DNA of 64,000 nt from Strigamia acuminata (lineage: Eukaryota > Arthropoda > Chilopoda > Geophilomorpha > Linotaeniidae), in contig OX442324.1 in assembly GCA_949358305.1 (NCBI GenBank), forward strand, positions 3,850,001 to 3,914,000. The letters run 5' to 3'. Both the position numbers and the translations under genes were made by a program. Shown in pieces: positions 36,670-64,000 of the stretch. Each line of letters opens with the position of its first letter. Position 1 is the first letter of the stretch. The notes beneath the pieces are model-generated. The model searched no databases and had not been told where the DNA came from. It saw nothing but the letters and a program-made list of their open reading frames with translations.

Positions 36670-36911
36670 GGTCTTTCCGGCCATTTCTTGCATCGAGTTC
36701 CTGATTTTCTTTACATCGCCGCTGTGGACGACTTCACAGGCACCAGATGCACGACAGCAGATTAGATGTGTTCAATGTTAAATGGATTTCTTTGATTTCG
36801 CTGATTATTTTGATTTTCTTGATTTCTGGAGACGTGAAGTGATAATTTTTACGTCATCAAATGAAAATCTGACTTCAGGTAATCGAATTTCTGAAGATCC
36901 ACGTGTAGGGT

Positions 36912-37439
36912 CGATTTTCTTAATTTTCAAGTTGATTTTCTTGGTTTTCAAGTTGATTTTCTCGATTTTCAAGTTGATTTTCTCGATTTTCAAGTTGATT
37001 TTCTTCATTTTCAAGTTGATTTTCTTCATTTTCAAGTTGATTTTCTTCATTTTCAAGTTGATTTTCTTCATTTTCAAGTTGATTTTCTTCATTTTCAAGT
37101 TGATTTTCTTCATTTTCAAGTTGATTTTCTTCATTTTCAAGTTGATTTTCTTCATTTTCAAGTTGATTTTCTTCATTTTCAAGTTGATTTTCTTCATTTT
37201 CAAGTTGATTTTCTTCATTTTCAAGTTGATTTTCTTAATTTTTTTGATTTTCAAGTTGATTTTCTTCATTTTCAAGTTGATTTTCTTCATTTTCAAGTTG
37301 ATTTTCTTCATTTTCAAGTTGATTTTCTTCATTTTCAAGTTGATTTTCTTCATTTTCAAGTTGATTTTCTTGTTTTTCAAGTTGATTTTCTCGATTTTCA
37401 AGTTGATTTCCTTGATTTTCAAGCTGATTTTCTTGATTT
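36912..37439. repeat. 21-bp minisatellite, about 25 copies
   Basis: The unit is close to ATTTTCAAGTTGATTTTCTTC, very regular in the centre and drifting at both ends, with one 12-bp irregularity near 37234-37245. Because 21 is a multiple of three, frames stay open on both strands: an FIFKLIF heptad on the plus strand and an MKKINLK-type heptad on the minus strand. No start context, splice sites or family match supports a gene. Confidence 0.9.
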
Positions 37440-40020
37440 CACTTCTATCGTGTGGTCTGACGCATACTAATTTTACTTCTCTTAAGAATCTTTAGCATCT
37501 AGACATCAGAAATAGATTTTGCATACGGTACACTGATGAATACACTGAATTGTAACATGTCCTAACTAATCTCTTAGCATCTCGTACGGTTATCTCAATC
37601 GCACCATGTTCGCTAACTAGTTTACTACTGAACTTACACACGTTTACACAATGGTGTTCCGCTCGTACATAATGGTTGCTGTAATTGATCATTGGTTAGT
37701 GGGCAAGGTTCAGCAGACATTGATCTGATTATAAATAAATTAAAAATTAAAATGAATGATTCAGGACAAACATGGCACACACATGCCGAATCCCACACAT
37801 CCCAACTTATGATAAATATTTGCAATTTATTTTTAACATTATATTTGCACTGCAATCAACATAATGATGAAATTTCAGTTCAAACCTGAACAAAACTCTG
37901 GGTCAACACTGTCTGCTTTAATTTTTTTCTTATTAGGATAGAAATTCTAAAATTACTTGTGTAATTTCATTTAATTTATAAATTTAAAACTTAAAATTAA
38001 ATTTTAATCACAAATTTTGATACGTTTGTTTTTGCGTCAATTAAAAAAACATTATGGTAATTGCCAAAACTTCGAACCAAGATGCAAACACACGAACTTG
38101 CAATCTTGTCTATAAGATATCCTTTTAAAAAAAATATAAACATGTTACGTCCAAAAATCGCTTTAAAATTTCCATTTATATTTTTATGAGTTTTCAAAAA
38201 TAAAAATTTAAAAGAAAAAATTAAAATAACAAAAAAAAATAATAATAAGAAAAAAATAAACCTTACAACATGAGAGCCCTAATAGTTGTCAATCATTAAT
38301 GCAAAGTCTGTCTAACTTAATCTATTGTATATTAAACGCAAAATTACCATTCATTTTTTCCCCCAAAAGCAGAAAAGAAAAAAAAAGAATTAAAAAAAGT
38401 AACTTTTGACAATAATTAATTGATGATAGTAACAGTTGCAATTCATCCGCAGCTGCAGATATGTCAGTGTACAACATTTTGTCATTCTTTTCTTCTGGAA
38501 AAGAAAGCAGAAAAAAGTAAAGACTATTTTCCTTTTTTTCTCTTAAGGTTTCATCGCTTTGTCTCCGTCCTCCACACGCAAGTTGTGAGTGATGGCAGGT
38601 CAGTGGCACCATGGAAAAAAAATCTCTCCAGAGATTGGCTCCAGTTGCAGCAAATTCCACGGTGCACTGACGGTAGAGTAGCCAACCTCAACTGAATTAT
38701 ACACTTGTAACCTCTTTACCTCATGCTCACCTCGCTGCTGACACTGAAAAGTCAATCAAAAGGGCATAAGAAATGAAATGGTGGAAAGTGATATATTGTT
38801 AATGATATGGAGAAAAAGATAAAAACGTTCAAACGCTATTTCGATCTGCTGTAAACTCAAAGTTCCAAGGATAGAAGCAAATTAACACGTTTAATACGTG
38901 ATCTTTCCGTCACGAATAAATTATTTCACTTAGTAATGGAAAACTCCCACAAAACATCTGTTTGACGCATTCAAATTCCCCCTATTACATTTTTTTTAAA
39001 ATTTTATTTAAATGTTGTCTACGTGTGTTGTATAATTCACAATTCACTTCAGGTTAAGGGATTTTTATAATTAAAAATTAAATTTATAAGTATTCCCATC
39101 CTGATCCCATTTCGGCTTGTCAGTTACGTGTTTGTCGTGTAGGATAAACTCATAAAAATGCTGGTGGGAAAAAGAGAGATCCAAAAGCAAAAATTTTTTT
39201 TCCTTCAAATTAGACATTCGAAGGTTGTTGACCAACTCCATTTTATCGGTTTTGATTTCGATATTTTTAATGTGTTCTTCAAGTTGGACACACAAGATAA
39301 AACGATGATGGTTAAAAAGCAGCCATTTGTTACGGTGGAATTTACATAACTGTTTATTTGCATAAATTTACAGAGGGCGCTGCGAATGCACGCGCGTCAT
39401 AAAATAACAACGAATTAAAAGATGGAGTTGAAACACTCCATTTTTCGTGAACAAATTGAGCATACCCCAAACGCATTAATATTTACTGTTCAAAAATACC
39501 ATAAACTGTCACGGCCCAGGTTTTCATCGTAATCGCGCGTAATTCAAAACGCAGTTTTTCTCCATCATAAACAACTCTTGAAAAATAAAATTTCAAAGAA
39601 ATAAAATAAAAATAAAATGATCGGGACGCGTCAGTTGTGAGAAACTAAATTTTCCCACTCCAAGTGTGTGTGTGTGACCAGCGACCAAGCAATCAAATCG
39701 AAAACCAAGTTCATTCCTTTCGAAAATTTATCCTCACTACGCAACGACACATCAAACTCGCAAAGTTTCTAGCATCCAACTATTACTAAAAATTCCCCAT
39801 AATGCATTCCATTCTAACTTGCAATCCGAGTTGACATGTTTACGTTTTTCAGTTGATGCTAACTGACATTTTCTGGTGACAGAACGTCCACATTTTATTA
39901 TCTCCAACCAGAAACGAAAATAATTTCACACAATATGAATATAAACCCACCTAAACAACAAATTCTTTTGTAAAAAAAAAAATCAAAACTAAAAAAAAAA
40001 TTTTTTTTTATTTTTTCCAG

Positions 40021-42264: not shown

Positions 42265-42788
42265 ACGTTAAGCAGCGCGGGTGTGTCCAACGAATATCGG
42301 GAAGGTAGACGAACGTTTCGACGACACGACGAGACGATACGAACGTCAGACGGACGTTTCGAACGAGTGGAATCGAGCGGAATCGAACGTGTGGCAAGAC
42401 GGGCCTAAAATCGAACGAGGACGCGTAGCAAAGAACGAGGTCGGGAACTGTGAGTTATTTTCGACTAGTAATTAGCTTCATGAGCCATAAGGGACGAAAG
42501 GCATAATTTTCAACGAGTTTGCAACGAACGGGATTCGAACGACGCCATTTTCGAACTGCACGTGCAACCGAAACAAGAAGAAAACGACGCCATTATTGAA
42601 GCAAAACGAACTATTTGTGCATGCAATTGTTTAAAACTTGTATTGTTAGGATCTGCGCAACGAAGCTTTGTTGTAGTTTTAAGATACAATTAAGTTTGTT
42701 TCAATTGTTGTTGCTATTTTGGGGGAAAATTGTTTGAAACTGACAACAGTCTGTGCTATTTGCAATTTTGAAAATTTTCCGAGACAAG
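42265..42788 (+). other. Copia untranslated leader
   Basis: About 520 nt between the primer site and the Gag-Pol ATG. It is full of ACGAACG/GAACGTTTCGA-like strings (42290-42560), which make imperfect repeats and hairpins and may include the packaging signal. No long frame. Confidence 0.6.
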
Positions 42789-45700
42789 ATGACGACTGAG
42801 ACTTCATCTAGCATTACTTCCTACGGGATAGAAAAAATGGATGGTACCAACTATTTGTCTTGGGCATTCAGTGTCAAGCTTCTATTAACCGAGAAGAAAC
42901 TTTGGAAAGTAGTAGACGGGACAGAAACTGAAGCCGATGCAACGAAATTGGCTGATTTGACAAATAAAGCTTTTTCAATAATTGGTTTGACAATCAAAAC
43001 ACAACAGCAATCACATATACGGGGATTGCAAAGTCCAAAAGAAGCTTGGGATCGACTGAAAGAAGTCTACGAACCGACGAACTCGTTACGCATCGTCCAA
43101 CTTCGCCGAGAACTTTACTCAACAGTGAAGCAAACCGGTGAAAATATGGACAAGTATCTCATGAGAGTGTCCGAATGCTCCGAGAGATTAACGAATGCGG
43201 GCCAAACGGTCGGGGACACAGATTTGGCTTGGGCCATGTTATGTGGTTTGACCAAAGAATACGAAGGACTGATTACGTCAGTACACACGATTGCAAAAGC
43301 GGATTTCACGTCGAACAAAATAAAAGACATGATATTGGCGGAGTCTTCAAGAAGAGAGACTTCAGACAATACCAAACGGGATTCGGCTGTGCTAATTGCG
43401 AACAAGATTCCACAGCAACGTGATCTTAAAAAGATCAAATGTTACAATTGTAACAAATTTGGCCATTATGCGCGGGACTGCCACAAGCCCAAGAAGGAAA
43501 GAAGCGCTGAGTCCAAGAATTCCAGTGACCACAAGAAGGCCAATGTTATGTCGGCATTTGCGGCGCGAGCGGATAAGGACGTTTGGGTGATCGATTCAGG
43601 AGCGAGTCATCACATGACAGCGCAGAAAGGGAAATTTTTGGAACTTCAAAATCCCAAAGTGGCGGAAATAAATATCGCAAACGGAAAGAAGGTCAAAGTA
43701 GAAGCTCAAGGGGACATCAACGTAGATTTCGTGTACGATGGGCAGACAGTACCAACGATTTTAAAAGAAGTACTTTACGTGCCGGAAGTGACGATGAATT
43801 TACTCTCCGTCGCGCAACTGGAAGCAAAAGGCTACTGGTTGTCATTCAAGAACGGATTTTGCAACGTGATGAATTCAAAGGATGTCGTGATTCTTCGAGC
43901 GAAGAGAGAAAACAGAATGTATCTGGTCAACGAGGCGTCACATCACGGGATGACGGCGACAACGGAAGCGACCAAAAACGAAATTTGGCATCAAAGATAC
44001 ATGCACGTGTCTTTGGACAGTCTACAAAAGATGGCCGAAAAAGACAAAGTCAGGGGATTGGAGATCAACAAAGATGCAATCAGCAAATGTGATTCATGTC
44101 TCCAAGGAAAATCCACCCGAAAACCATTCAACAAGGAAGAACGGAAGTTGGCATCCGAAGTACTGGATTTGATCCATTCGGACATTGCGGGTCCACTTCA
44201 AACAAAGAGCAAGGGAGGGCATCGTTACTACATTACGTTTATTGATGATAAGTCAAGGAAAATAGATGTCTACTTTCTGACCCACAAATCTGAAGCGCTT
44301 GAAAAATTTCAAGATTACATGACGAGAATGGAGAGAAAAACGGGGAAGAAAATAAAAGCCTTGCGAACGGATAACGGGCTCGAATACTGCAACGAAGAAT
44401 TTGACCGTTTCCTGAAGGAGAAAGGAATTTCTCATCAACGCACCGCAGTGTACACCCCAGAACAAAATGGAATTTCTGAGAGATTAAACCGGACATTGCT
44501 GGATCTGGTGCGGTCAAGTTTGATCCAAACGCAATTGGGTGCAGATTTTTGGGCTGAAGCAGTCAATACTGCAGTTTACGTGAGAAACCGGACAGTGACA
44601 CAAATCACTGGGAAAACGCCGTATGAAGTTTGGTACGGGCGAACGCCATCCGTGAAACACTTAAGAGTGTTTGGCTGCAATGCAGTGATGCACGTTCCCG
44701 CGGCCAAAAGAAGAAAATTGGACAATCGCGGAGAAAAATGCATATTTCTTGGGTATTCAGCCGGGGAGAAGACATATCGGTTGTGGAATACCAAGAAAAG
44801 AAAAGTGATGACTTCACGTGACGTCGTGTTCAAAGAAAATGAATTCGGATTCAACGAAACGGATGAACTGGACGCGAAGGAAGTAATGACTCTCACTTTC
44901 GACGAACCGAAACAAGTTCCGCCAGCGGCAAAACCAAAACGTGGACGACCGACAAAAGCTGAAGCCGTTCAAAAACAGTACGAACCAACAAAGATGATTC
45001 TCCGAAGTCAGGTGCAACAACAAGCGGAACCGGAAGTTGCAGAAACGGAAGATGCTGAGGAGGAAGATGAAGAGGATTTGATAGGAACAGCAATGTTTTG
45101 TCATTTTGAAGAACCTTCTACCTACCAAGAGGCATTGAATTCCAAGGACGCAACGAAATGGCAAACCGCAATAGATGACGAATTAAACAGCTTACACAAG
45201 AATGAAACATGGGAGATTACGGATTTACCAAAAGACAGCAAAGCGATTGGCTGTAAATGGGTGTTTCGAGTCAAACAAAACCCAGATGGTTCAGTTGAGC
45301 GGTATAAAGCGCGCTTAGTTGCCAAAGGATTTACACAGCGCTACGGTCATGATTATACCGAGACATATTCTCCAGTGGCCGGAATTGCGACAATGCGACT
45401 CATAATTGCTATAGCTGTAATTTTGGGTTGGGTGTTGGAACAAGTTGATGTAACGACAGCATACTTAAATGGTATACTCGAAGAAGAAGTCTACATGGAA
45501 ATTCCCGAAGGCTTAGTGGGAAAATGGAAAAACAAAGTGTGCAGACTAATCAAGTCGTTATACGGATTAAAACAATCAGGACGTGCGTGGAATGACAAGT
45601 TGGACGAGGAACTCGAGAAACAGGGTTTCAAACGTTGTTTTTCCGACGCGTGTGTTTATTGGATTCAAATAGGAAACGAACGCGGAATTATCGGGGTTTA

Positions 45701-46667
45701 CGTCGACGACATGGTGATAGCCGGACAATCAGAAAACATGTGTCGAGAAATCAAAAAGAGACTGCGTAAATGTTTTGAAATCAAAGAACTTGGAACTCTG
45801 AAGTACATGTTAGGAATCGAATTTGGACGGGATAAAAACGGAAACATGTTTTTAACGCAAGAAAAATATGTTGAGAAAATCCTGAAGAGATTCAACATGA
45901 CTGATTCAAAACCAATGGCGACACCAATGGTGAAATGTACTGACAACAATAAGAAAGAGCCAGAAGAATTTGAAGATCTGACGGTCGAGCCTTATAGAGA
46001 GGTAATTGGCTGCTTATCTTACTTGGCCAACAGTACGAGACCGGACATTTCACACGCTGTAAATGTGTTAGCACAATTTAACAGCAAACCAAAAACCAAT
46101 CACTGGCAAATGGCCAAACGCATTCTACGATATCTGTCGGGAACCAAGAAACACGGATTGGTTTACAATGAGAATAAAGGATTTTTGACTGCATTCGCAG
46201 ACGCAGATTGGGCGAATTGCAAGATTAACCGAAGATCTTACAGCGGAACTTTGCTGAAACTAGCCGAGAATTTAGTAATATGGCAGAGCAGCAAGCAGAA
46301 GGTCGTAGCCACCAGCAGCATGGAAGCCGAGTACATCTCGATGTGCAATTGTTCGAAAGACATTGTATGGATGCGACGACTGATCGAAGAGTTGGATTTG
46401 TCAACGTTGATCGGAGGACCAACAATCATGAGATGCGACAACCAACCAGCTAAAGTTTTTGCACAAAGCAATGTGGAGAACCGGAGATCAAAACATATTG
46501 ATGTCCGGTACCACTACATCAGAGAACAGATAAAGGCGAAACGAGTCAAATTGGAATTTGTTCCAACCGAGAACAATGAAGCTGATTTATTGACAAAGCC
46601 TTTAGATAAAGTGAAATTAAGTAATTTCAGAGAATTATTAGGTGTGAAACCAATTATCAGGGCATAA
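42789..46667 (+). CDS. Copia Gag-Pol polyprotein (1292 aa, intact)
   Basis: The single frame starts at ATG 42789; an upstream GTG in frame is not needed. Domain order is that of Ty1/copia. A Gag of the UBN2-type family (GTNYLSWAFSVKLLL) comes first, with a CCHC knuckle at about residues 218-231 (CYNCNKFGHYARDC). The aspartic protease follows (VIDSGASHHM, D269), then the GAG-pre-integrase zinc region with CDSCLQGK. The integrase core has D465, D528 and E564 (35 residues between the last two). Next comes reverse transcriptase with YVDD at 971-974 and the KARLVAKGFTQ block. RNase H has DADW at about 1138 and the SSMEAEY glutamate at 1179. Integrase before reverse transcriptase is diagnostic of copia. 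No stop or frameshift is seen, so Gag must be made in excess by some other means, for example splicing as in Drosophila copia. Confidence 0.98.
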   Translation: MTTETSSSITSYGIEKMDGTNYLSWAFSVKLLLTEKKLWKVVDGTETEADATKLADLTNKAFSIIGLTIKTQQQSHIRGLQSPKEAWDRLKEVYEPTNSLRIVQLRRELYSTVKQTGENMDKYLMRVSECSERLTNAGQTVGDTDLAWAMLCGLTKEYEGLITSVHTIAKADFTSNKIKDMILAESSRRETSDNTKRDSAVLIANKIPQQRDLKKIKCYNCNKFGHYARDCHKPKKERSAESKNSSDHKKANVMSAFAARADKDVWVIDSGASHHMTAQKGKFLELQNPKVAEINIANGKKVKVEAQGDINVDFVYDGQTVPTILKEVLYVPEVTMNLLSVAQLEAKGYWLSFKNGFCNVMNSKDVVILRAKRENRMYLVNEASHHGMTATTEATKNEIWHQRYMHVSLDSLQKMAEKDKVRGLEINKDAISKCDSCLQGKSTRKPFNKEERKLASEVLDLIHSDIAGPLQTKSKGGHRYYITFIDDKSRKIDVYFLTHKSEALEKFQDYMTRMERKTGKKIKALRTDNGLEYCNEEFDRFLKEKGISHQRTAVYTPEQNGISERLNRTLLDLVRSSLIQTQLGADFWAEAVNTAVYVRNRTVTQITGKTPYEVWYGRTPSVKHLRVFGCNAVMHVPAAKRRKLDNRGEKCIFLGYSAGEKTYRLWNTKKRKVMTSRDVVFKENEFGFNETDELDAKEVMTLTFDEPKQVPPAAKPKRGRPTKAEAVQKQYEPTKMILRSQVQQQAEPEVAETEDAEEEDEEDLIGTAMFCHFEEPSTYQEALNSKDATKWQTAIDDELNSLHKNETWEITDLPKDSKAIGCKWVFRVKQNPDGSVERYKARLVAKGFTQRYGHDYTETYSPVAGIATMRLIIAIAVILGWVLEQVDVTTAYLNGILEEEVYMEIPEGLVGKWKNKVCRLIKSLYGLKQSGRAWNDKLDEELEKQGFKRCFSDACVYWIQIGNERGIIGVYVDDMVIAGQSENMCREIKKRLRKCFEIKELGTLKYMLGIEFGRDKNGNMFLTQEKYVEKILKRFNMTDSKPMATPMVKCTDNNKKEPEEFEDLTVEPYREVIGCLSYLANSTRPDISHAVNVLAQFNSKPKTNHWQMAKRILRYLSGTKKHGLVYNENKGFLTAFADADWANCKINRRSYSGTLLKLAENLVIWQSSKQKVVATSSMEAEYISMCNCSKDIVWMRRLIEELDLSTLIGGPTIMRCDNQPAKVFAQSNVENRRSKHIDVRYHYIREQIKAKRVKLEFVPTENNEADLLTKPLDKVKLSNFRELLGVKPIIRA

Positions 46668-53091: not shown

Positions 53092-53509
53092 TGTCGTAAC
53101 CTTGATTCCGGTAAATAAACTTACACAATATCTTACAATAATAACCTTTTATTTCACACTTGTAATATAATACAAATATACTTAACAATGTTGTGGTCTC
53201 GGATCCTTGTCGGCGGATACGATTTGTTGCTGCACGGCAGTCTTACACGTGGTTTCTGTTGTCTAGGGTAATGGCGTCTGGCGAAACACGTGTTCGCAAA
53301 CGCTTCGCTTCGGTAGATATTACTATCGTAGTATTGCTACGATAAATATCTGTGACTGTGATTTATAGATGAATTTGGCAACGGGCATCGATCCTCTATC
53401 AATCCGGTAAACGGCCTGACGGTGAGGTGGTGATGCTAATGTTGCTCTGGTATCTATAAAGTGGGGGTTTCCGGTCAGATACGGGTTTAAATAGTGGCTG
53501 GACCGGAAA

Positions 53510-53564
53510 TGACGTATTTGCATAAATTCGGGGAATTATGCAAATCTATGACGTTGTCACGTCA
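53510..53564. promoter_or_regulatory. LTR enhancer-like cluster: two octamers and three CRE half-sites
   Basis: ATTTGCAT (53516-53523) and ATGCAAAT (53538-53545) are perfect inverted octamer motifs of the POU-factor type. Around them lie TGACGT at 53510 and 53549 and ACGTCA at 53559. The cluster sits some 20-70 bp upstream of the TATTTAAA box on the element strand, in U3, where an enhancer would be expected. Confidence 0.55.
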
Positions 53565-53580
53565 GTCCCGCAGAAACGGT

Positions 53581-53601
53581 AAAACTAGTATAGCTAGTTT
53601 T
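53581..53601. repeat. 21-nt inverted repeat in the LTR
   Basis: AAAACTAG and CTAGTTTT are perfect 8-nt arms around TATAG. Possible protein-binding palindrome in U3. Confidence 0.8.
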
Positions 53602-53700
53602 CCCGCAATAATCTGACAATCATTTTACTATCAATATTAAAATTACTATTTATTAAGTTATGATTAATTAAAACACTTTTGTGACCTCGTGGTCACCACA

Positions 53701-53773: not shown

Positions 53774-56344
53774 TTAGTTCGCTTCCTTTTCAGATGATCC
53801 CTGAGGAACGTCCGGAGGCGGAGGTGGAGGTAATTCTTCGGTTACAGGTGGTTTAGCCATCTCCGGAGTTGCTGGAGTCGTTGGTTCGGCGATCGGCAAA
53901 ATCGAGGTGAGACGTGATGAACGATCGCTCGGGTCTTCAAACTCCCCGATGAAGTATCGATCGTGGCCGCCAACTGGTTCGTAGGGGGCGCCGACTCGTT
54001 CATGTACCCAGATACGCGAGAGGAAGGGGGCCAGGCCTTGATTGGTATGGTGGATCTTCTGGGCTTCGGCCGGATTCTTCGGGGCGCGGTGTGCACGCAG
54101 CAGACGTTGGTGCTGAATGAAATCGACGCCTGGACCTGCCTCTAGAGTTCGCTCCATCCATAAGTAGAGCGAGTGGCCGTGGTCGCTCGATCGCTTGATC
54201 TGGTTCTTCGTCTTCTGGGTCATCGTCAAACTCGGGTAGTAGTGTTTGAGTTGTGCGTCGATCGGAGGCAAAGGTTTCGGCTCTAATTTTCTCTTGGGCC
54301 GCAGGATCTTTGGTTTTGTCTTCGTCTTCCGGACGACTACTTTCACGCCTTCGATCGGAACCAGTCCTTCGGGGAACTTTATCGTCTCCTCTGGAGTGAC
54401 TGCTGGGACTGTCTGGCTCGCCGGAGTCTCAGGAAGGGGTTTGTTGGTTAGTACGACCGGTTCGCTTTGTGGTACAGCCACAGCTCGGACTACCTGGTAT
54501 GATCGTTCTGGGTCGGCATCTTCTGCAATTAATTGCGCGCGGACCTGGATACAGGAAGGAACCAATTTTAGCCATCGCTCGACGAGAGCGGGAGGCAGCT
54601 GAAAACTTTCATGTGCGACGACCGCCCAGGCTGCCAGTGCCACACGGGCGTTTCTAAACGTAGATGCGGCCAGCACTAGCGACATCATGTCGGTGATTAC
54701 GACTGTCGTTCGTGCCATTCGTGACGGGTGATCTCGTCCAGGGCTGTTGGTGAACTCGATGGCCGCGCTTCGGATATTCGTCACGGCGATCTGCATCGTT
54801 CTGGCTTGGTAGTCATCGATGTCGGACACCATCTCTTTTGCTTGCTCGATCGTGGTTGTATCGAGGAACGACTGTAATTCACACGATGTTGGATCAAACT
54901 GGGTTGTGGCTCGAGTGTCCGAAGATCTGTTATTGGGGGGTGGTCTTGAAGGCGTTTGATTGCTTTCGTCGACTCTAACTACGGTATCTTGTCTTGAGTT
55001 AATTAAAACTCGTTGAACATCGGGTTCGGGCTCATCCCAAACAATCGGTGTTCTCAACGTAGAAGTCTCGCTTCGCGTTTCTTCCGGTACGGCTGGGAAA
55101 ATTGGTCCAAAACGATCTTGTCGTCGTTTGAGTTGTTCAAAGGGACTCAGCGATGTCGGGGCTCCGATGACCACAGTTTTTCGGAATGCGCTGGGCAGAC
55201 TAGAAGGCACGCTGGTGGCTGGCTTTGTCGGTGTTTTGATGAACACACTTGGCACCGAAGTTATGCTCATTTCGATCGATTTAGTCGGCCGGTAGACAGG
55301 CTTCGATTGTTCATTTTTGGCCTTCAGGACTGCTGCTACCATGTCGGCTTCGGTATATTTTCTCTCTTGTTCCGGTACGATCATCGGCTCTGCCGATTGT
55401 TCGTGTTCGATCGTTAATGGCACTTCTTGTCGAACTTCCACTTGCAAAGTCTCTACCTCATCGACTTCACGTGATCTCTCAAAGCGTCCCCATGTTTCTG
55501 CTCGTGGCCTTGATAACCTGAGGCATCCGCGTTGGTTCGGTCGATTTCTGGAGTAGCGGTATGTCTCGACCTCCCGTGGCTTCTCGACTCTGGGCTCTCG
55601 TCGCGGCGAGGGTTCTCGAGCGTGTCGGTAATAAACTCGAGGATGAGACTGCGATCGATCGTGCGTGTTGTACGACGTGCTTGGCTGATCCAGGCGTCGT
55701 CGCTTGTTGTCGTGTGTGTGATTTAATAATTCGCTCGAGAGTCGCTTCTCCGCTTTCTGTCGCTTGCGCCCAAAGATGCCCAGGTAGTGGAGCTGGTGCA
55801 TTGCTTTCTGTGAGGTAATAAATCCGTGTTCGGGCCGCCAGTTGGGAACGTCTGGTCTTTCTCCTCGAACCTGGCTTAACCAAGTTTTTATCTCATCTGT
55901 CGAATACCCTGCTGGTTTCAGTATTTTGAAGAGATCTCGATACGCCGTCCGTCTGACTTCGTTGTAATAGTCTCTGTGTATTTGTCGGCGCTCTTCGTCT
56001 GTAGCGGCGTTTTGCCACCTCTCGAGGACAGCCCACTCTTCGGGCTCGCTTGGATAGTCCTTTTCCAAAAACTTGTTTGGGAGTGGTGCTGGTGCGTCGT
56101 CGCGTTCTGGAATTTCAGTCCTCAGTGCGTCGCGCATCTTTTCTGGGAAGTAGTGTATCAGGGTCTCCTGACTTGCCCAAAATCGCGATCGGGCTCGGGA
56201 TGAAGTGAGCCGAATTTTCCATGGTCCGGTGTCGACGTCGTCCTCTAACGCTCTTCGAAATGGGGTCGGAATTTCGCTTCTCCAGAGTGTACCCGAAGAC
56301 ACGTTTTGTGGATCGATGGGTCCCCACGTAAGTTGGTGTTCCGG
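53774..56344 (-). CDS. Third gene of the gypsy-type element, main exon (unknown function, 856 codons)
   Basis: The frame opens right after the acceptor TCATTCCTCAG and runs to TAA at 53774. No in-frame ATG occurs in roughly its first 70 codons, which nevertheless read like protein (LTWGPIDPQNVSSGTLWRSE), so it almost certainly needs an upstream exon for its start. Visible parts are an N-terminal Trp/Arg/Glu-rich region, then a basic segment that could be a bipartite nuclear signal (GRKRQKAEKR ... NKRRRLD), then a long Arg/Pro/Ser-rich low-complexity middle. After that comes a helical, fairly hydrophobic but not membrane-like block (TTTIEQAKEMVSDIDDYQAR to VVRAVAVP), a Lys/Pro-rich linker and a C-terminus with PPPPPP. 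There is no signal peptide, transmembrane segment, furin site or cysteine pattern of an envelope protein. I do not recognise the family. Confidence 0.8.
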   Translation of the reverse strand, partial: PEHQLTWGPIDPQNVSSGTLWRSEIPTPFRRALEDDVDTGPWKIRLTSSRARSRFWASQETLIHYFPEKMRDALRTEIPERDDAPAPLPNKFLEKDYPSEPEEWAVLERWQNAATDEERRQIHRDYYNEVRRTAYRDLFKILKPAGYSTDEIKTWLSQVRGERPDVPNWRPEHGFITSQKAMHQLHYLGIFGRKRQKAEKRLSSELLNHTHDNKRRRLDQPSTSYNTHDRSQSHPRVYYRHAREPSPRREPRVEKPREVETYRYSRNRPNQRGCLRLSRPRAETWGRFERSREVDEVETLQVEVRQEVPLTIEHEQSAEPMIVPEQERKYTEADMVAAVLKAKNEQSKPVYRPTKSIEMSITSVPSVFIKTPTKPATSVPSSLPSAFRKTVVIGAPTSLSPFEQLKRRQDRFGPIFPAVPEETRSETSTLRTPIVWDEPEPDVQRVLINSRQDTVVRVDESNQTPSRPPPNNRSSDTRATTQFDPTSCELQSFLDTTTIEQAKEMVSDIDDYQARTMQIAVTNIRSAAIEFTNSPGRDHPSRMARTTVVITDMMSLVLAASTFRNARVALAAWAVVAHESFQLPPALVERWLKLVPSCIQVRAQLIAEDADPERSYQVVRAVAVPQSEPVVLTNKPLPETPASQTVPAVTPEETIKFPEGLVPIEGVKVVVRKTKTKPKILRPKRKLEPKPLPPIDAQLKHYYPSLTMTQKTKNQIKRSSDHGHSLYLWMERTLEAGPGVDFIQHQRLLRAHRAPKNPAEAQKIHHTNQGLAPFLSRIWVHERVGAPYEPVGGHDRYFIGEFEDPSDRSSRLTSILPIAEPTTPATPEMAKPPVTEELPPPPPPDVPQGSSEKEAN

Positions 56345-56560
56345 CTGAGGAATGAATACATAAAAATTAGATTTTTGTTAAATTCCGAATTTGGATTCAA
56401 GATGGCGCCATGGTCGACCATGTGCTTTTTACACGTGTTGAATTTTAAATAATGGCTCGTGTCATTTTTCGTTTGTTGACATAAAGATGTTTTCTTTTAT
56501 GAATCTTGTTTCACGTATTTTCGTGGTTTAGCCACAAATTAAATTCTTTGTTATTTTTAC
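56345..56560 (-). other. Predicted 216-nt intron in the third gene
   Basis: Element strand: donor AAAAG|GTAAAAATAAC, acceptor TCATTCCTCAG|CCGG, and a CTAAT branch-like site about 24 nt before the AG. The interval is AT-rich with several stops, unlike both flanks. Removal joins two coding-like frames in phase 0. As 216 is divisible by three, both exons are in the same genomic frame and only the stops in the intron separate them. Confidence 0.7.
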
Positions 56561-56868
56561 CTTTTCGTTTCCATCGGGCTTTTCCCGATTTTCTTCCGGT
56601 TCAACCTCGTCCCATCTTGCGGGATCGTTCCATTCGTCTTCGCTTGGGTCCCGATCCATTTCTTCCTCTTCGTTGTCGGGTGATTGCTTCCAGTTTCTTC
56701 GCATTTTTGATTCGATTTGTTGGTTGCGATTTTTGTCAAGCACCTGTTGTCGTCGTGACAGAACGCGGAGTGCAAAGTTGAAAGGGTAGTCGAGGTTAAG
56801 TATCTTGATTGGCTTTCGTATGTAATACGTAGTTGATTGTTGGAGTCTCCTTGTGATTGTTTTTGTCC
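56561..56868 (-). CDS. Third gene of the gypsy-type element, small acidic exon
   Basis: The frame is open from just after a TGA near 56895 to the donor at 56561. It reads TITRRLQQSTTYYIRKPIKI, a short middle part, then ALRVLSRRQQVLDKNRNQQI and an acidic tail (DNEEEEMDRDPSEDEWND). The left limit is set by a possible acceptor CTCCTAG|GGACA at 56868. The only in-frame ATG is at 56704; starting there would give 48 codons from this exon and a 904-residue protein with the main exon. Protein-like sequence before that ATG suggests translation starts further upstream, in another exon. Family unknown. Confidence 0.6.
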
Positions 56869-56950: not shown

Positions 56951-59900
56951 TCATGTCCTCCCGGTGATTTTACCGTCCTTTATAAACGGGTTTGGTGCCT
57001 TTTTTCTTGTACTTTGTCGTGTTATAGGTTTCGGTATTTTACTTCTCGATCGTGTGGATCTTTTAGTAATCTCTTTTTCTTTTTCAGGAGTTTTAGGAGT
57101 TTCTTTGTTAACTGCTGCTTCCTCCCCTCCTAAATTTCCATCTGGGGCGCTAGTTAGTTCGGCGCTGTCTGGAGTTGCGTGAGTCGTATTTTCGTTCAAG
57201 TCTGAAACAGTGGCGATGTCGTCGAACATATCTCGTATTGTGGGCGATGGAGATGGCTGCGTTTGGTCCTCGGCCCATTCTTCTTGTGGAAATTCCGGCA
57301 AGTAAGGCGTCAGTTCTCGAGCGTGGATTGATCGAAAATTTACATTATCGGCCAAACGTTGCAGAGAAAATGCGTTCCCGCCGTGGGCCTTGGTAATTAC
57401 GTATGGGCCGTCTCGTTTGTCGGCTAAGCCGGCATGAATCCCTTTATCTGCACTGGATAAAATGTGAGTGTCCTTCCATACGAGATCGTTGATTTTGAAA
57501 TTACAAAATTGTGTGTTCTTTTCAGACTTTTTCACTCGTTCGCGCATGTCAAACACATGTGACATCATATGTTGGTAGGTTGCCGAAATTGCTTGTTCTA
57601 ATTGATGTACGTAAATGTGAGGATTTTTTGGATCGACTTTTCGAATTCCTTCTGGGATGCGTGGATCCCAGGGCACTCGTAGCTCTCGAGCGAAGTTGAG
57701 ATAAGCCGGGGAAAAGCCGCGGTTTCTCGAAATGGTCGTTCGGATGCTAAATGCTATTTCTTTAAGGAACTCGTCCCACTTGGAATGTACGTCTGTGAAA
57801 ATAGCAAGCGCATATTTTATGTCGCGGTTGAGTCGCTCCACGGGATTAGCCCGTGGGTTATACGTTGAAGTAAATGATGGTTGAATGTCGAATTGATTGC
57901 AGAAATCCTTGTATAACCTTGATGCGAATTGTGGGCCATTATCGGAAATTAATTTTCGCGGGAAGCCAAAATGTAACGCGACTTCGTAGAGGCACTGGAT
58001 TATTTTCTGCTTAGTCGGGTGGGCCATCGGATACAACTCTGGCCATCCTGTTGCGACATCCATGATCACGAGTATGTATTTGTGGCTATTTGCACTTGTT
58101 ATCTTAGGACCCATAAGGTCTACGCTCCAACAATCAAAAGGGGCGAACGGTCCAAGTGATAAATTCTCGTAGTTAGCCTTATTCCGAGGCTTGCAGGCTT
58201 GGCATCGTGGACAGTGTCGTATGAATCGTACGATGTCCCTTCTCATTTCGGGCCAATAGTACAGTTGACTGGCCCGGTAGAGAGTCCTTGCCACGCCGGC
58301 GTGTCCGGCTAGAGGGTGGCCGTGTACCATCCACAGAATTTGTGTTCGAACTTTTCTCGGAATTACGACTTTAATTGAACTCCCTGACTCTGTCAAGTCG
58401 TCCCGAAAGTTCGGATGGTACTTTAAAAGTAGGCCATCGTCTATCAGATAAGCGGAAGCCTTAATTTTGAACTCTTCTCTGGATTCTCTGCTGTAGACGT
58501 CGCCAGGGAAAGTCTCGTTGGTCAAGTAGTCATAGAACCTTTTACAGAAGGCGGTGTCGTTCTTCTGAGCTTCGACGAGTTCCTCGCGAGTAGGTGGGAC
58601 ACAGTTCGTGCCTTTACTCACGTGTGTAACGAAAGCTCGCACAAATTTATCCGAGACTCTGGGTTCGATGGATAAGTCGTAATTTGGTCTGGCATCTTTT
58701 GCCGATTGATATGCCCTCATCCAATATCCGACGTATTTTTCATCGGAAGATTCCAACTTTTCTTTCGGCAGTTCATTCTGTTTTCTGAATTCCCACTTCC
58801 TGATCGGGGTGGGACAGTAAGCTATCCGAGAATCGTCGTCGCCGTCGTCGTCTGGCTCGTCGGGTTCTGAGGCGGGAGCTCTAGAGAGCGCGTCGGCGAC
58901 TGTGTTATACTTCCCTGGCTTGTACTCGATTTGTAAGTCGTAAGCCATGAGCTCTAATTGCCATCGAGCCATCCGGCCCGAAGGTTCTTTCAGGCCCATG
59001 AACCACCTTAAAGCCTGATGGTCGGTCTGGACGGTAAATTTTGTAAACTCGAGGTAAGGCCTGAATTTACGAACTGCCCATACGATTGCCAAGCATTCGA
59101 GCTCTGTCGCTGAGTAATTTTTCTCGGCGGCTTGAATTTTCCGGCTGATAAAGATCGTGGGTACTTCTTGATGTATGCCGTCGATTTCGTGCATTTGCAT
59201 CAACGCAGCCCCCAATCCGATTTTACTCGCATCCGTATGTAAGATAAATTCGCGATTCAAGTCGGGGAGAGGGATGGTTTTGGTGTCGATTAGCATTTGT
59301 TTGATTTTGTCAAACGCTGCTTCGCAATGGCTGGTCCAGTTAAATTTGATTTCGGGGTCTTTCGGCGGGTCCTCCTTTGGATTTATTTTCTGGACAGTCT
59401 TTAAAAGATCGGTGATTGGGGCCGCGACTTCCGCTAAATGTGGTAGGAGTCGGCCGAAGAAATTTACCATTCCTAAAAAACGTTGTACTCCTTTCACGTC
59501 CGTAGGAGCCGGAAAATTGGTGATTGCTCGTACTTTCTTTGGGTCTATGGATAAGCCATTGACTCCAACTTTGTATCCAAGAAACGCAAGTTCTTTTCGG
59601 CAAAACTGGCTCTTTCCGGGGTGTATGTGGAGTCCGGCTTCTGCTAAACGACGTATTACTTCGTCGATATGTCTGATGTGTTCGTCAAAAGTCTGGGAGA
59701 CAATAATAATATCGTCCAGATACGCCCAGGCGTATTTATGTAGCGCGTCGCCCAAAACTTTTTCGATTAAACGTTGAAATGTTGCCGGGGCATTTACTAG
59801 GCCAAATGGCATGACATTAAACATTAACCTGCCCATCGGGGACCAGAAAGCGGTTTTTTCTTTGTCTTCGGCACGGAGTTCGACCTGCCAATATCCTTTC

Positions 59901-61279
59901 GACAGATCCATCGTTGTTACCCAATTAAATGGGGCTAATTCTCGAAGAATGGCTTCGATTGATGGCATCTGGACGGGGTCAATAACGGTAATGGCGTTTA
60001 GAGGTCGATAATCGATGCACAGTCTGGGTTCCGATCCTGCACGCATGACGAGCACGATTCTCATCGCATATTCTCCTAATGCCTCGGACACTATCCCCTT
60101 GTCCAGTAAGTCTTGACAGATCGTCTTGACGATTTCGCGTTTTTGGGGGTTCATGCCCTTGAATGGAACTCGTACTGGCTTATCCGTACTTAATTCTATT
60201 TCGTGTTTTACGTAATTTGTCTTTCCCGGTTCTTTAGTCAGGATTTTTCGATGTTTTTGTAGCATTTCTTCAAGTAATTTAGTCTGGGTTTCTCCTAGGT
60301 TCGCGTCCATGGCCAAATTGTGAGCCAAATTTCCTTCTTGGAGTCGGGCGTTAAAAGATTTGAAATCGTAATCTTGTACGAATTGCTTCAAATTTCCGCC
60401 TTTCCATTCGTCCTCTTCGTCGTTCGAATCTAGGAGTTCGGTAGGTACTGTCATTAGTCGGGGGTCCTCGCGTTTATCGATATAGTTCCAGGACCTCGTT
60501 ATGGGGTTGGGCTGGATCTCCATTATGGCCATGATGTCCATACCCAAGAGTAGGACCGTGTCGTAGGTTGGTAAAACGATGAAAGGATGGGTTATTACGC
60601 CTCCCTCCCATATGACTTTTGTTGTCAGTACTCCTACTGGACGCACTTCTCCAGCAGCGGTTTTTACGGCCACATTTTCGCTTATTCCCCGTAGTTTGTC
60701 GCGTTGTTTTTTGTCCAACGACTCGTATAGATCTGAAGAGATAAAGGACCGGTCGGCTCCCGAATCCAACAAACCGATGAATTTTTTGTCGTTAAACTTG
60801 ATTGTTAACATTGCGAGTGAGTCCTTCCGCTCTTTAGCCAAATTACAATGTAAAATGCGTTTCTTTCGAGGTGGGGCCTCCTCGTAGGCGTGAGGTAATT
60901 CTTGGAATGTTTCGGCTATTTTTTCGCCGTCCGCCGTATTAGTGGTTGGGCCACTATATTCGCGTTTTTCTGTGGTGAAGTAAGCCGTAGTGAAATAAAC
61001 GACCTTTTTCTGTAATTCTTTTATTTGTTTTTCTAACCAATTGGTGTTTATCCATTTGGCTTTTAATTCGTCTTCCGAACTTGAGTCGCTAATTTCTTTA
61101 TTATTCGTTTCAATTTCTTTCGATTTTTTCTCTTTTAATTCGAGTTTTAATTTGACTACTTCTTCCGTAATTACTTCGTTAATTGCCTGGTTAATTGTCG
61201 TATTCGTGGTAAATTTTGGGGTTTGGTCTTCCGGGCGTGCAGACAGATTTATTATTTTTTCTCTGTCTGCTTTAACCAG
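56951..61279 (-). CDS. Gypsy-type Pol (made by -1 frameshift from gag)
   Basis: The frame after the slip runs 1442 codons to a TGA followed at once by TAA. Numbering in the Gag-Pol fusion (about 2280 aa): aspartic protease LLDSGADRSF with D1010; reverse transcriptase with LCIDYRPLNAIT, MPFGLVNAPATFQ and YLDD at 1358-1361; RNase H starting HTDASKIGLGAAL (D1521) with the TDHQALRW block. Integrase has an HHCC finger (HGHPLAGHAG ... CPRCQACK, about 1815-1860), catalytic D1892, D1951 and E1986, and a C-terminal GPY/F module (RDGPYVITKAHGG). No chromodomain is visible. Integrase after RNase H places it in the Ty3/gypsy group. The frame also runs upstream into gag, to a TTG at 61378, which is not a start. 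No inactivating change is seen. Confidence 0.97.
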   Translation of the reverse strand: MVKADREKIINLSARPEDQTPKFTTNTTINQAINEVITEEVVKLKLELKEKKSKEIETNNKEISDSSSEDELKAKWINTNWLEKQIKELQKKVVYFTTAYFTTEKREYSGPTTNTADGEKIAETFQELPHAYEEAPPRKKRILHCNLAKERKDSLAMLTIKFNDKKFIGLLDSGADRSFISSDLYESLDKKQRDKLRGISENVAVKTAAGEVRPVGVLTTKVIWEGGVITHPFIVLPTYDTVLLLGMDIMAIMEIQPNPITRSWNYIDKREDPRLMTVPTELLDSNDEEDEWKGGNLKQFVQDYDFKSFNARLQEGNLAHNLAMDANLGETQTKLLEEMLQKHRKILTKEPGKTNYVKHEIELSTDKPVRVPFKGMNPQKREIVKTICQDLLDKGIVSEALGEYAMRIVLVMRAGSEPRLCIDYRPLNAITVIDPVQMPSIEAILRELAPFNWVTTMDLSKGYWQVELRAEDKEKTAFWSPMGRLMFNVMPFGLVNAPATFQRLIEKVLGDALHKYAWAYLDDIIIVSQTFDEHIRHIDEVIRRLAEAGLHIHPGKSQFCRKELAFLGYKVGVNGLSIDPKKVRAITNFPAPTDVKGVQRFLGMVNFFGRLLPHLAEVAAPITDLLKTVQKINPKEDPPKDPEIKFNWTSHCEAAFDKIKQMLIDTKTIPLPDLNREFILHTDASKIGLGAALMQMHEIDGIHQEVPTIFISRKIQAAEKNYSATELECLAIVWAVRKFRPYLEFTKFTVQTDHQALRWFMGLKEPSGRMARWQLELMAYDLQIEYKPGKYNTVADALSRAPASEPDEPDDDGDDDSRIAYCPTPIRKWEFRKQNELPKEKLESSDEKYVGYWMRAYQSAKDARPNYDLSIEPRVSDKFVRAFVTHVSKGTNCVPPTREELVEAQKNDTAFCKRFYDYLTNETFPGDVYSRESREEFKIKASAYLIDDGLLLKYHPNFRDDLTESGSSIKVVIPRKVRTQILWMVHGHPLAGHAGVARTLYRASQLYYWPEMRRDIVRFIRHCPRCQACKPRNKANYENLSLGPFAPFDCWSVDLMGPKITSANSHKYILVIMDVATGWPELYPMAHPTKQKIIQCLYEVALHFGFPRKLISDNGPQFASRLYKDFCNQFDIQPSFTSTYNPRANPVERLNRDIKYALAIFTDVHSKWDEFLKEIAFSIRTTISRNRGFSPAYLNFARELRVPWDPRIPEGIRKVDPKNPHIYVHQLEQAISATYQHMMSHVFDMRERVKKSEKNTQFCNFKINDLVWKDTHILSSADKGIHAGLADKRDGPYVITKAHGGNAFSLQRLADNVNFRSIHARELTPYLPEFPQEEWAEDQTQPSPSPTIRDMFDDIATVSDLNENTTHATPDSAELTSAPDGNLGGEEAAVNKETPKTPEKEKEITKRSTRSRSKIPKPITRQSTRKKAPNPFIKDGKITGRT

Positions 61280-61285
61280 TTTTTT
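61239..61285 (-). promoter_or_regulatory. -1 ribosomal frameshift signal between gag and pol
   Basis: On the element strand the gag frame reads ACA AAA AAC at 61287-61279, giving the canonical slippery heptamer A AAA AAC (61285-61279). After an 8-nt spacer (TGGTTAAA) follows a perfect 9-bp stem, GCAGACAGA (61270-61262) with TCTGTCTGC (61247-61239). The 14-nt loop contains the gag stop TAA (61254-61252). A -1 slip here enters the pol frame exactly. Confidence 0.93.
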
Positions 61286-63792
61286 GTCAGTTCTTCGAAT
61301 TTGGCTGTTAGCTTTTCTAACAATGCGTCGTTTTTGGCGGCTTCCTTCTCTTCTTTCCTCTTCTTTCGTTTTGGACAATCTCTTCTCCAGTGTCCCACCT
61401 CGTTACAATAATTACAAGGTTTTGTGGTGGAGTTATCTGTTTTCGGGTACGGTCGTCTCACGAACTCTTTTTTCTCGTAGGGTTTGTCGCTTTTTGGATT
61501 GTGGTGCTCCGTTTTATTCGCGGTCTTCATTCGGGGTCGGTAGCTTGGGGCGATTTCTTTCCCCATGTTAGCGTGGAGAGTCTCTTCTTCTTGTTGGCTA
61601 TCGCTGGTATCCCCTCCTGAGTTTTGCTCGGAGTTATTGTCTTCACTTTCCCTCCCTTCTTCGAGATTAGTTGCGTCGGAGTTTGTACTGGCTTTGTAAG
61701 CTTTTGGAGCCGGTATCGGGTTCGAGGTGGCTTTATCGTTCGCCTTTTTCGGAGGTGCGGCCTCGATTTCCCCGTTCAGGAAGCTACGCGACTGGATCAG
61801 TCTCCCTGCGTCATGATTTTTCGCATGGATACGCTGTATGCGGAGTTGCGTTTGTGTCCTCTGTTCGGGCGTCAGGGCTTCCGTATAACGATCGTCTACT
61901 TCTTCGTGATAGTCATTTACAAATTTTAGCAGCTGTTCGAAACTATCTGCTGTGGGAGCGTTCATATCTCTCAGTACTTTCTTTGAGGTGTCGTTTAACC
62001 CCTTTTCGAAAATCACGTTTTGCGCATATTCGTCGAGTGGCGTATCCAACTCGTTGAACAAACTTTTCGCTCGTCGGAAATAGGCTCGTAACTCTTCTCC
62101 TGCGGCTTGTAGCATGAGACTGACTCTCTGTCTAATTTCTTTTTGGGTCTCGCCGTACTGACTGTTGAAAGCGACGACAAACTGTTCCCAAGTTTTTAAT
62201 TTTGCTTCCACATACCAGGCTCTGGCTTCCCCTATTAACATTTCGGGTAGCCCTTTTGTTACCATCTCGTCGGGTTCGGCTCCGAGTCGTGAAATGGTGA
62301 GTGCCACTTCGTCTAAGAAGTTATTGCCGGCCCTCCAGGTTCCGTCGAATCTCATCAGTCGCAACTGTGACCATTTTATGTTTCGGTCCTTTTGTTCTAA
62401 AGCCCATTGATCGGCGGAATATTTTCGAAGAAGGCTCTCGTTTTGTCTTGGGCGATTTCTCAGATTTCGATTTTGGTTGACCTGGGAGTCGGCGCGTGCT
62501 CGTTCCTCGAGTGCTCTTAATCTAGCTTCCATTATGGGATCGGCTTGGTATTGATTCCCACAGTTCGGGGACGTAGCTCCATTTTGGGGCGCAAATCGTT
62601 GGAAATTACCGTTGGTTGAGTTCGGGTCGGTCAAGGTCGGTGTTGTCGAGTTTGGCTGCGACTCGGTCAGTTGTGTTCCGGGGGGGAAAATTCCGTTTAT
62701 GGCTGTTCCATTTAGGACCCCGTTCTTCTGTCCGATCAAAATGGTCGACCCTCTCCCGCCGTAAAGTTGTGTCTTTAGTCTTGCGGCTTCTCGGTCGACT
62801 TCGTTGGCGGCTTGTATTTTAATTCTTTCCGCCTCGTTTGCGGCTTCGACGTTGGCTTGTACCGTCTGGATATCTTCGAGGCTTGGCATTGCCAACCTGT
62901 TCCGTCCTTGCTGGTTTCTGAGGTGGTTTCGCTGATTTATCAGTCTAATCATCTCTGCGTTAGGGTCCTTTGGGGTTTGACTGGTGTGGCCAGCTCTCGT
63001 AGCAAAGGATTGGGCGATTGCCCACGACTGTTGACCCTTATTATTTCGACGGTCCTGCTGGAAGGCTTCCAGGAATTCGTTCTGGATTTCGACTGGCTCG
63101 TCCACTATACTATCCCATCCTTGAACGTTGATTCCTTTCGAGCTGAGGGAATCGGCCTCGCTTTCGTCGTCGGCGTCGGATGTTCGGGTGGAATCATAGG
63201 AGTCCGTCGTTTGGTTATTCGTTTTTTGACGTTTTACGTTTTTTCGACCTCTTCTAAGGGCTCGTTTTTCCGCTCGCTCTTTGGCAAGACGAATGATCAT
63301 GTTCATCTGTGCTAGCGGGTCCCCTTCTTCGTTGTAAGGGATTCCCTCCAGTCGAGCGAGTTCGTACGCTTCTTTACAGCTATCGATCTGGGATTTCTTC
63401 GAATTATAACCGTGTGTGATCGTGACACGATTACTCTGGCGATTATCCTGATTGTCGAATAGGTTATACCCGTTCTGACTTTGTTCGGATTCTTCTTCTT
63501 CCTCTTCGACTTCTTCTTCGATTCGCTGATTTATCGGCGTTTTATTGGTTGGGTTTTTGCTAGCGGGTACTTTACTAGCCGGCGTTTTTCCGGTCGGCAC
63601 ATTCTCGGGTGGTTTTTCCGCGTGGTTTTCGTTGACTGGTGTCTTTCCAGTCGTCTTTTCCCTCGTCGGCTCCGGTGGCTGCTTTTCTAACGCTGGACTA
63701 GCTAATGCTTCGGCCCTTGCCTTGGCGGATTCCATGGCTTTTCTTCGGGCGCTTGCGGTTGAAGGGTTTCGATTTTTCCCGCTTTTCGTCAT
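61252..63792 (-). CDS. Gypsy-type Gag (846 aa)
   Basis: ATG at 63792 starts the frame, about 70 nt after the primer site; longer versions need a TTG. The first 450 or so residues are an unusual Lys/Pro/Thr/Asn/Gln-rich extension with an acidic run (EEEVEEEEEESEQ) and no recognised fold. A retrotransposon Gag capsid domain follows at about 470-635 (MRFDGTWRAGNNFLDEVALT, LPEMLIGEARAWYVEAKLKT, WEQFVVAFNSQYGETQKEI). A CCHC knuckle lies at 793-806 (CNYCNEVGHWRRDC), with a basic tail KRKKRKEEKEAAK. The frame ends 26 nt after the slippery site. Most Ty3/gypsy Gags are 250-500 residues, so this one is long because of its N-terminal extension. Confidence 0.95.
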   Translation of the reverse strand: MTKSGKNRNPSTASARRKAMESAKARAEALASPALEKQPPEPTREKTTGKTPVNENHAEKPPENVPTGKTPASKVPASKNPTNKTPINQRIEEEVEEEEEESEQSQNGYNLFDNQDNRQSNRVTITHGYNSKKSQIDSCKEAYELARLEGIPYNEEGDPLAQMNMIIRLAKERAEKRALRRGRKNVKRQKTNNQTTDSYDSTRTSDADDESEADSLSSKGINVQGWDSIVDEPVEIQNEFLEAFQQDRRNNKGQQSWAIAQSFATRAGHTSQTPKDPNAEMIRLINQRNHLRNQQGRNRLAMPSLEDIQTVQANVEAANEAERIKIQAANEVDREAARLKTQLYGGRGSTILIGQKNGVLNGTAINGIFPPGTQLTESQPNSTTPTLTDPNSTNGNFQRFAPQNGATSPNCGNQYQADPIMEARLRALEERARADSQVNQNRNLRNRPRQNESLLRKYSADQWALEQKDRNIKWSQLRLMRFDGTWRAGNNFLDEVALTISRLGAEPDEMVTKGLPEMLIGEARAWYVEAKLKTWEQFVVAFNSQYGETQKEIRQRVSLMLQAAGEELRAYFRRAKSLFNELDTPLDEYAQNVIFEKGLNDTSKKVLRDMNAPTADSFEQLLKFVNDYHEEVDDRYTEALTPEQRTQTQLRIQRIHAKNHDAGRLIQSRSFLNGEIEAAPPKKANDKATSNPIPAPKAYKASTNSDATNLEEGRESEDNNSEQNSGGDTSDSQQEEETLHANMGKEIAPSYRPRMKTANKTEHHNPKSDKPYEKKEFVRRPYPKTDNSTTKPCNYCNEVGHWRRDCPKRKKRKEEKEAAKNDALLEKLTAKFEELTKNWLKQTEKK

Positions 63793-63858
63793 TTCGATAG
63801 TTTGCAAAGTTCAAACCGTAAGATATGTTTATTTAAAATAGTTTGAATGTTCAAAACT

Positions 63859-63878: not shown

Positions 63879-64000
63879 TGTCGTAACCTTGATTCCGGTA
63901 AATAAACTTACACAATATCTTACAATAATAACCTTTTATTTCACACTTGTAATATAATACAAATATACTTAACAATGTTGTGGTCTCGGATCCTTGTCGG
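63879..64000 (-). repeat. Gypsy-type element 5' LTR (partial, window edge)
   Basis: The 122 bases here equal 53092-53213 with no difference that I can see. They are the U5 end of the 5' LTR on the element strand; the rest lies outside the window. Confidence 0.95.

Follow-up and report, generated by a model that had tools for sequence, protein, structure and literature searches.

In insects, the env genes of Gypsy-clade elements are expressed by splicing. Across long terminal repeat (LTR) elements more widely, env-position genes without known homology have been reported to be common and mostly unexplained (PMC10309623). The same paper reports on CERV, encoded by the Gypsy/Ty3 element Cer1 of C. 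elegans: the protein is nuclear, comes from a spliced mRNA of an env-position gene and is needed to export the genomic RNA; it has a length of 517 amino acids, five exons of which exons 1–3 are in the gag frame, and a conserved cysteine-rich loop (PMC10309623). CERV is the sole env-position gene of this sort with a shown function that turned up in the open-access literature searched. In plants, additional env-like open reading frames (ORFs) of elements such as Bagy2 and Athila lie in the sense orientation between pol and the 3′ LTR, and splicing has been reported for Bagy2 (PMC7264820). Here we describe ORF3, an env-position gene in a 64,000-nt stretch of the Strigamia acuminata genome (assembly GCA_949358305.1, contig OX442324.1, positions 3,850,001 to 3,914,000; the whole stretch is referred to as the window), and we show that a Gypsy-type LTR retrotransposon has in it a genuine third gene.

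Based on the letters of the window, the initial annotation had proposed a spliced env-position gene of unknown family, built from two open stretches that are separated by 216 nt with stops and flanked by a donor and an acceptor. All of these are present in the sequence, and intron-loss copies, the shared structure of a diverged family and purifying selection now support the proposal. The resulting gene model is as follows.

56705..56743, minus strand: putative 5′ untranslated region within exon 1, following a candidate acceptor; placed by its sequence and by frame-shifting indels
56561..56704, minus strand: ORF3 exon 1, coding, 48 codons from the ATG at 56704 (MRRNWKQSP...GNEK), net charge −11
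56345..56560, minus strand: ORF3 intron, 216 nt, GT..AG, phase 0, contains stops
56398..56429, minus strand: 32-nt intronic block AAAAGCACATGGTCGACCATGGCGCCATCTTG, kept between two families of the element
53774..56344, minus strand: ORF3 exon 2, 856 codons plus stop

The donor reads AAAAG/GTAAAA (exon end at 56561) and the acceptor TTCCTCAG/CCGG (exon start at 56344), and joining 48 to 856 codons gives a product of 904 residues. Exon 2 has no methionine before residue 70, as the initial annotation had remarked of the first ~70 codons of the main exon. Its estimate of 904 residues or more also stands, while its upper limit at 56868 was too wide: frame-shifting indels of 1, 2 and 4 nt occur among the copies between ~56744 and the ATG at 56704, whereas the aligned copies have none that shift the frame from this ATG to the donor at 56561, and coding therefore starts at 56704. 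An exon 1 that is coding as far up as 56868 is ruled out by the same indels. A candidate subgenomic acceptor, ACAACAG/G, would lie just upstream of exon 1 (AG at 56745–56744), and the sequence from 56744 to 56704 contains no ATG.

The most direct evidence for splicing comes from copies that lack the intron. The genome searched (237.5 Mb, one genome) was represented by 28 exon-2 loci that we read, namely eight, including the window copy itself (L007), and 20 more. In three of them (L009, L010 and L011) the intron is exactly absent, leaving the junction GAAAAG/CCGGAACACC, and the spliced 19-mer is present at exactly three places in the genome, which are these same loci. Exact absence in three copies shows that splicing at the 216-nt intron happens. 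The intronless copies differ from the intron-bearing copies L020–L022 by 1–9 nt across the ORF3 region (nine pairs), and by the variable-site table for this region every one of them is 1–4 nt from its closest intron-bearing copy. Their target duplications are distinct in the two copies with both ends read (L009, AACG; L010, ATCT), and their LTR pairs have 0 (L009) and 1 (L010) differences; the 5′ end of L011 was read incompletely. The gag and ORF3 frames are open in all three, and pol is open over the part read in L009 and L010 and interrupted by an insertion in L011. We infer from these sequences that an RNA spliced at the ORF3 intron, with gag and pol still on board, was reverse transcribed and inserted. 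How often this occurred can be read in two ways. L010 has two ORF3 sites in common with the intron-bearing L021 and another with L011, and a pol site unites L010 with L020 and L022; one loss followed by recombination and repeated losses are each compatible with this.

Two observations belong beside these loci. L006 was considered as a spliced retrocopy and set aside: its similarity to the element breaks off upstream of 56610, and the sequence beyond finds no match in the element; we read it as a truncated insertion. In L039, the pol of L011, an insertion of ~310 bp begins at about base 6333, with inverted ends CAGAGAATAACAT and ATGTTATTCTCTG and a target duplication of ~8 bp, GTCCTAAG; by its appearance we take it to be a hAT-like miniature inverted-repeat transposable element (MITE).

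ORF3 is not confined to close copies of one element. Exon 2 as query gave at least 53 scored genome matches at 86–100% identity, the window copy counted, and 49 of the 53 have no stop within the matched part. Residues 487–803 of exon 2 gave at least 125 scored matches (121 without internal stop), the later of which, at 49–54% identity, make up a second family; a shorter exon-2 query gave at least 150 matches. The three family-2 loci read (L063, L064 and L065) have an exon 2 that is 49–50% identical to the window's. Exon 1, the intron position and phase 0 are retained in two of them: exon 1 opens with ATG (MKRNDWKK in L063, MRNDWKK in L064), a GTAAGT donor follows ...PD, and a phase-0 acceptor closes an intron of 267 nt (L063) or 275 nt (L064). 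In the third, L065 (G000:C1:56763600-56767500), exon 1 and the end of pol are missing; exon 2 is open and still has its acceptor.

Genome-wide, an exon-1 motif stands 408–438 nt upstream of 74 of 82 family-2 acceptors, and the remaining eight have none inside 2 kb. The spacing between exon 1 and exon 2 is spread over all three frames (27/24/23, modulo 3), which argues against reading through the intron; 100 of 103 exon-1 places were used, and many copies are close kin, so that the counts are not independent. With the one pattern tried, a spliced family-2 junction was not found genome-wide. Longer frames also occur: L066 (G000:C1:42877300-42881800) is a deletion derivative in which pol (at about residue 949) is joined in frame to ORF3 (at about residue 503), giving an open frame of 1309 amino acids, and a match at C1:56000194 has a frame of 1296 amino acids.

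ORF3 is under purifying selection. Measured against the window copy, the ratio of nonsynonymous to synonymous substitution rates (dN/dS) is 0.10–0.16, with dS up to 0.45, in 17 divergent family-1 rows; 25 of the 28 rows were used, of which these 17 were informative and seven too alike to tell, the window copy and L007 being one copy. L006 had been excluded beforehand as truncated, and L016, L024 and L027 failed the strict end test; these three have no internal stop, and their match runs to residue 854, which suggests that they end slightly early. Three family-2 pairs give 0.10–0.12. The corresponding ranges for gag (0.07–0.17) and pol (0.06–0.18), both from five copies, are similar, and ORF3 is therefore about as constrained as the two canonical genes. 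Between the window copy and L064, substitutions at codon positions 1/2/3 number 319/266/531, and synonymous sites are saturated between the families. Together with the largely stop-free matches, the dN/dS values run counter to the random decay that the initial annotation had named as evidence against the gene.

One could take ORF3 for a passenger, or for a remnant in decay, and its splice-like junction for a coincidence, but this notion has nothing in its favor except the absence of a known family. The open matches, the low dN/dS, the exact intron absence and the architecture shared by two families already contradict it, and we regard it as hardly tenable. Conversely, we hold the architecture and splicing of ORF3 to be practically certain.

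Exon 2 is also a mosaic. In 150-nt blocks (window 55450–53800, minus strand; L012–L028) some copies have up to 42 differences where others are nearly identical, and L028 has a dS of 0.45 in ORF3 versus 0.09 in pol, which points to recombination between lineages.

ORF3 belongs to a Gypsy-type LTR retrotransposon that is young, lies on the minus strand and has gag and pol as its other two genes. Membership in Ty3/Gypsy follows from a gag with a CCHC knuckle, the pol order protease, reverse transcriptase, RNase H, integrase, and two LTRs. Its remaining features are listed here.

53092..53700, minus strand: 3′ LTR, 609 bp, TG..CA
56951..61402, minus strand: pol frame, open; protease, reverse transcriptase, RNase H and integrase (Pfam)
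61252..63810, minus strand: gag frame, open; Retrotrans_gag and CCHC knuckle (Pfam)
63906..63911, minus strand: first 5′ splice donor candidate in U5 (5′ LTR), GTAAGT, putatively used
63918..63923, minus strand: second U5 donor candidate, GTAAGA, putatively used

The 5′ LTR has its 3′ end at 63879 and starts outside the window; its sequence is identical to that of the 3′ LTR, and the insertion is bordered by a 4-bp target duplication, ACGT. Directly inside it (63878–63860, minus strand) stand CG and then TGGGGGTCTGTCCGGGA, which we take to resemble a tRNA-Pro primer site. The named relatives of pol are from animals, at 34–40% identity (among 120 matches listed of 723). Hits to a telomere-like pattern were scattered and numbered 16, compared with 4 for its control. 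Among nine aligned copies, the GTAAGT in U5 is whole in eight, a T being inserted within it in L025, and GTAAGA is whole in all nine. For comparison, foamy viruses use one 5′ splice site only, located in the LTR, and regulate env splicing (PMC5294762). Elsewhere in the window, 42744–46667 (plus strand) holds an open Copia-type polyprotein of 1307 amino acids (Pfam), and 36782–37495 is repetitive, with several frames open on both strands (IFKLIFF / KMKKINL repeats).

If ORF3 were an envelope or another virion component, recognizable features of such proteins might be expected. The highest 19-residue hydropathy is 1.27, with no transmembrane-like stretch, and no Env model matched in Pfam, in line with the lack of membrane and envelope features described initially. 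We consider the product very probably not an envelope. As to a signal peptide, the N terminus MRRNWKQSPDNEEEE reads as hydrophilic by eye, and an upstream start reached by splicing might lie before it. A structural role more broadly, as a second capsid, a matrix or a non-standard envelope, would agree with the env position, the env-like splicing and the size of ORF3, while the missing transmembrane-like stretch and the lack of any Env or gag family match speak against it, as does a profile comparison with gag of the same element, which found no match. Derivation from gag was rejected on this last comparison (0.6% probability), which is weak, a single sequence standing on one side. We judge a structural role improbable.

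Database searches gave ORF3 no family. Exon 2 has no convincing relative in Pfam, NCBIfam, PDB or ~5.8 billion proteins (phmmer and profile searches), which bears out the homology statement of the initial annotation, and exon 1, searched in Pfam only, has a weak match to a kinesin-associated model at E 0.037, below the cut-off. We do not count the weak exon-2 matches to DUF6235 and TetR_C_6 (E 0.16–0.28, below cut-offs), to a mitochondrial ribosomal protein chain among the PDB sequences (E 0.43), or to RNase E (one of six members, E 0.02), the latter read as a charged-region match. As the protein-collection search required shared 5-residue words, scored 8000 candidates and used exon 2 alone as query, distant relatives may be missed. 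The basic segment, the polyproline tail and the absence of recognized domains are all as first described. The basic segment GRKRQKAEKRLS is identical in six aligned exon-2 sequences, which also have the invariant stretches TFRNARVA-AAW-VVAHE and FIQHQRLLRAHRAP...IHHTNQG, and ORF3 contains a further lysine-rich stretch, a charged R/E-rich part and ten loose export-signal patterns, the last counted without a control. In the model of residues 487–803 the first 137 residues are mostly helix, at low confidence.

Among the functional ideas we prefer RNA handling in the nucleus, by analogy with CERV. In such a model the LTR transcript would either be left unspliced, as genome and gag-pol message, or be spliced into an ORF3 mRNA, by removal of at least the 216-nt intron and probably also by splicing from a donor located in either the LTR or the leader to the acceptor just upstream of exon 1. 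The ORF3 protein would then enter the nucleus via the basic segment, use its charged R/E-rich part and its helical domains to bind unspliced element RNA or to assemble on it, and promote the export or protection of intron-containing RNA, which would bring the genome and the gag-pol mRNA into the cytoplasm. We give this explanation as a whole, a spliced third gene acting as a CERV-like nuclear helper of element RNA, a probability of roughly 45%; the assignment of ORF3 as a nuclear RNA regulator, taken by itself, is tentative and slightly weaker.

The same basic and lysine-rich segments, with the conserved and probably helical regions, could also serve a protein that acts on DNA or chromatin, in nuclear import of the pre-integration complex or in tethering of integration. 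Such a role is unlikely, as pol already supplies an integrase and a spliced regulator better fits the known precedent; to our knowledge, most Gypsy elements also manage without such a gene. If instead ORF3 countered host silencing, by small RNAs or chromatin, the lack of relatives beyond the element families and the many recent copies would be understandable; dN/dS, however, is ≤0.31 in each 60-codon window (11 copies), without the positive selection of an arms race, and we consider this idea at least as improbable as a structural role.

Another variant of regulation draws on the intron. Its 32-nt block is identical at 30 of 32 positions between the window copy and L064, where the remainder of the intron aligns poorly, and its alignment scores 28, where 300 base shuffles reached at most 18. 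A search with a degenerate 28-mer built on the block gave 151 genome places (reversed control, 0), and 98 of the 100 places listed stand before an ORF3 acceptor or match. The block contains CGCCATCTTG, presumably a YY1/Pho-type core in reverse complement. ORF3 might be an independently evolved Rev/CERV-type regulator with its own intron as a component of the circuit: the block would act as a control element, as DNA or as RNA, and tie the amount of ORF3 to unspliced RNA (e.g. as an internal promoter or splicing switch), and intron-loss derivatives would escape the switch yet spread. We regard this as quite unlikely. The block is not absolutely required, because the intronless copies lost it and still inserted.

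Several points weigh against the preferred role of ORF3 as a nuclear helper of element RNA. Nuclear location, RNA binding and export are inferred by analogy, and basic segments and loose export-signal patterns are common or uncontrolled, respectively. At pLDDT 39, the single-sequence fold of residues 487–803 is not usable, and the better of the two U5 donor candidates, GTAAGT, is the one broken in L025. Between pol and exon 1, the window copy has no unusual RNA fold (z −0.35), although a longer stretch of L064, which takes in exon 1 and some of the intron, does (z −3.10); the intron of the window copy has a z of −1.94. Homology to CERV, or to any known family of RNA-binding proteins, was not detected: a six-member exon-2 profile gave no hit at E ≤ 1 with 8000 candidates scored, no one-to-one comparison with CERV being made. 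Finally, ORF3 does not have the conserved cysteine-rich loop of CERV, as its 904 residues include three cysteines, none in an invariant column. With neither the loop nor a sequence match to CERV, ORF3 cannot be shown to be its homologue and would at best work like it.

How, then, does ORF3 compare with the known systems? Its position is that of the env genes of insect Gypsy-clade elements, from which it differs by having no membrane segment by hydropathy and no Env match. In foamy viruses, spliced pregenomic RNA gives rise to proviruses without the bel-1 intron, and this loss damages the transactivator; the intronless copies of our element, in contrast, retain an open ORF3. Like the additional ORFs of Bagy2 and Athila, ORF3 is in the sense orientation between pol and the 3′ LTR, but some of the plant products have transmembrane domains, which hydropathy does not reveal in ORF3, and ORF3 is interrupted by an intron of its own. 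With 904 residues and both identified exons downstream of pol, ORF3 is also unlike CERV, whose N-terminal exons are common with gag; in both families ORF3 has its own ATG exon downstream of pol, which a gag-derived leader exon might still precede. It is like CERV in being a large, element-restricted protein in the env position, made from a spliced mRNA (by genomic evidence for ORF3), with a candidate basic nuclear signal and no envelope features. The intron-loss copies are in themselves a genomic record of an internally spliced, otherwise long RNA that was reverse transcribed and inserted. ORF3 presents a second, apparently unrelated case beside CERV. It has more than 100 copies, most of them open, falls into two diverged families and offers, in copies with and without the intron, a natural contrast, which makes direct tests of the role of such genes possible and allows us to ask whether the intron-containing RNA of elements depends on a dedicated protein for its export.

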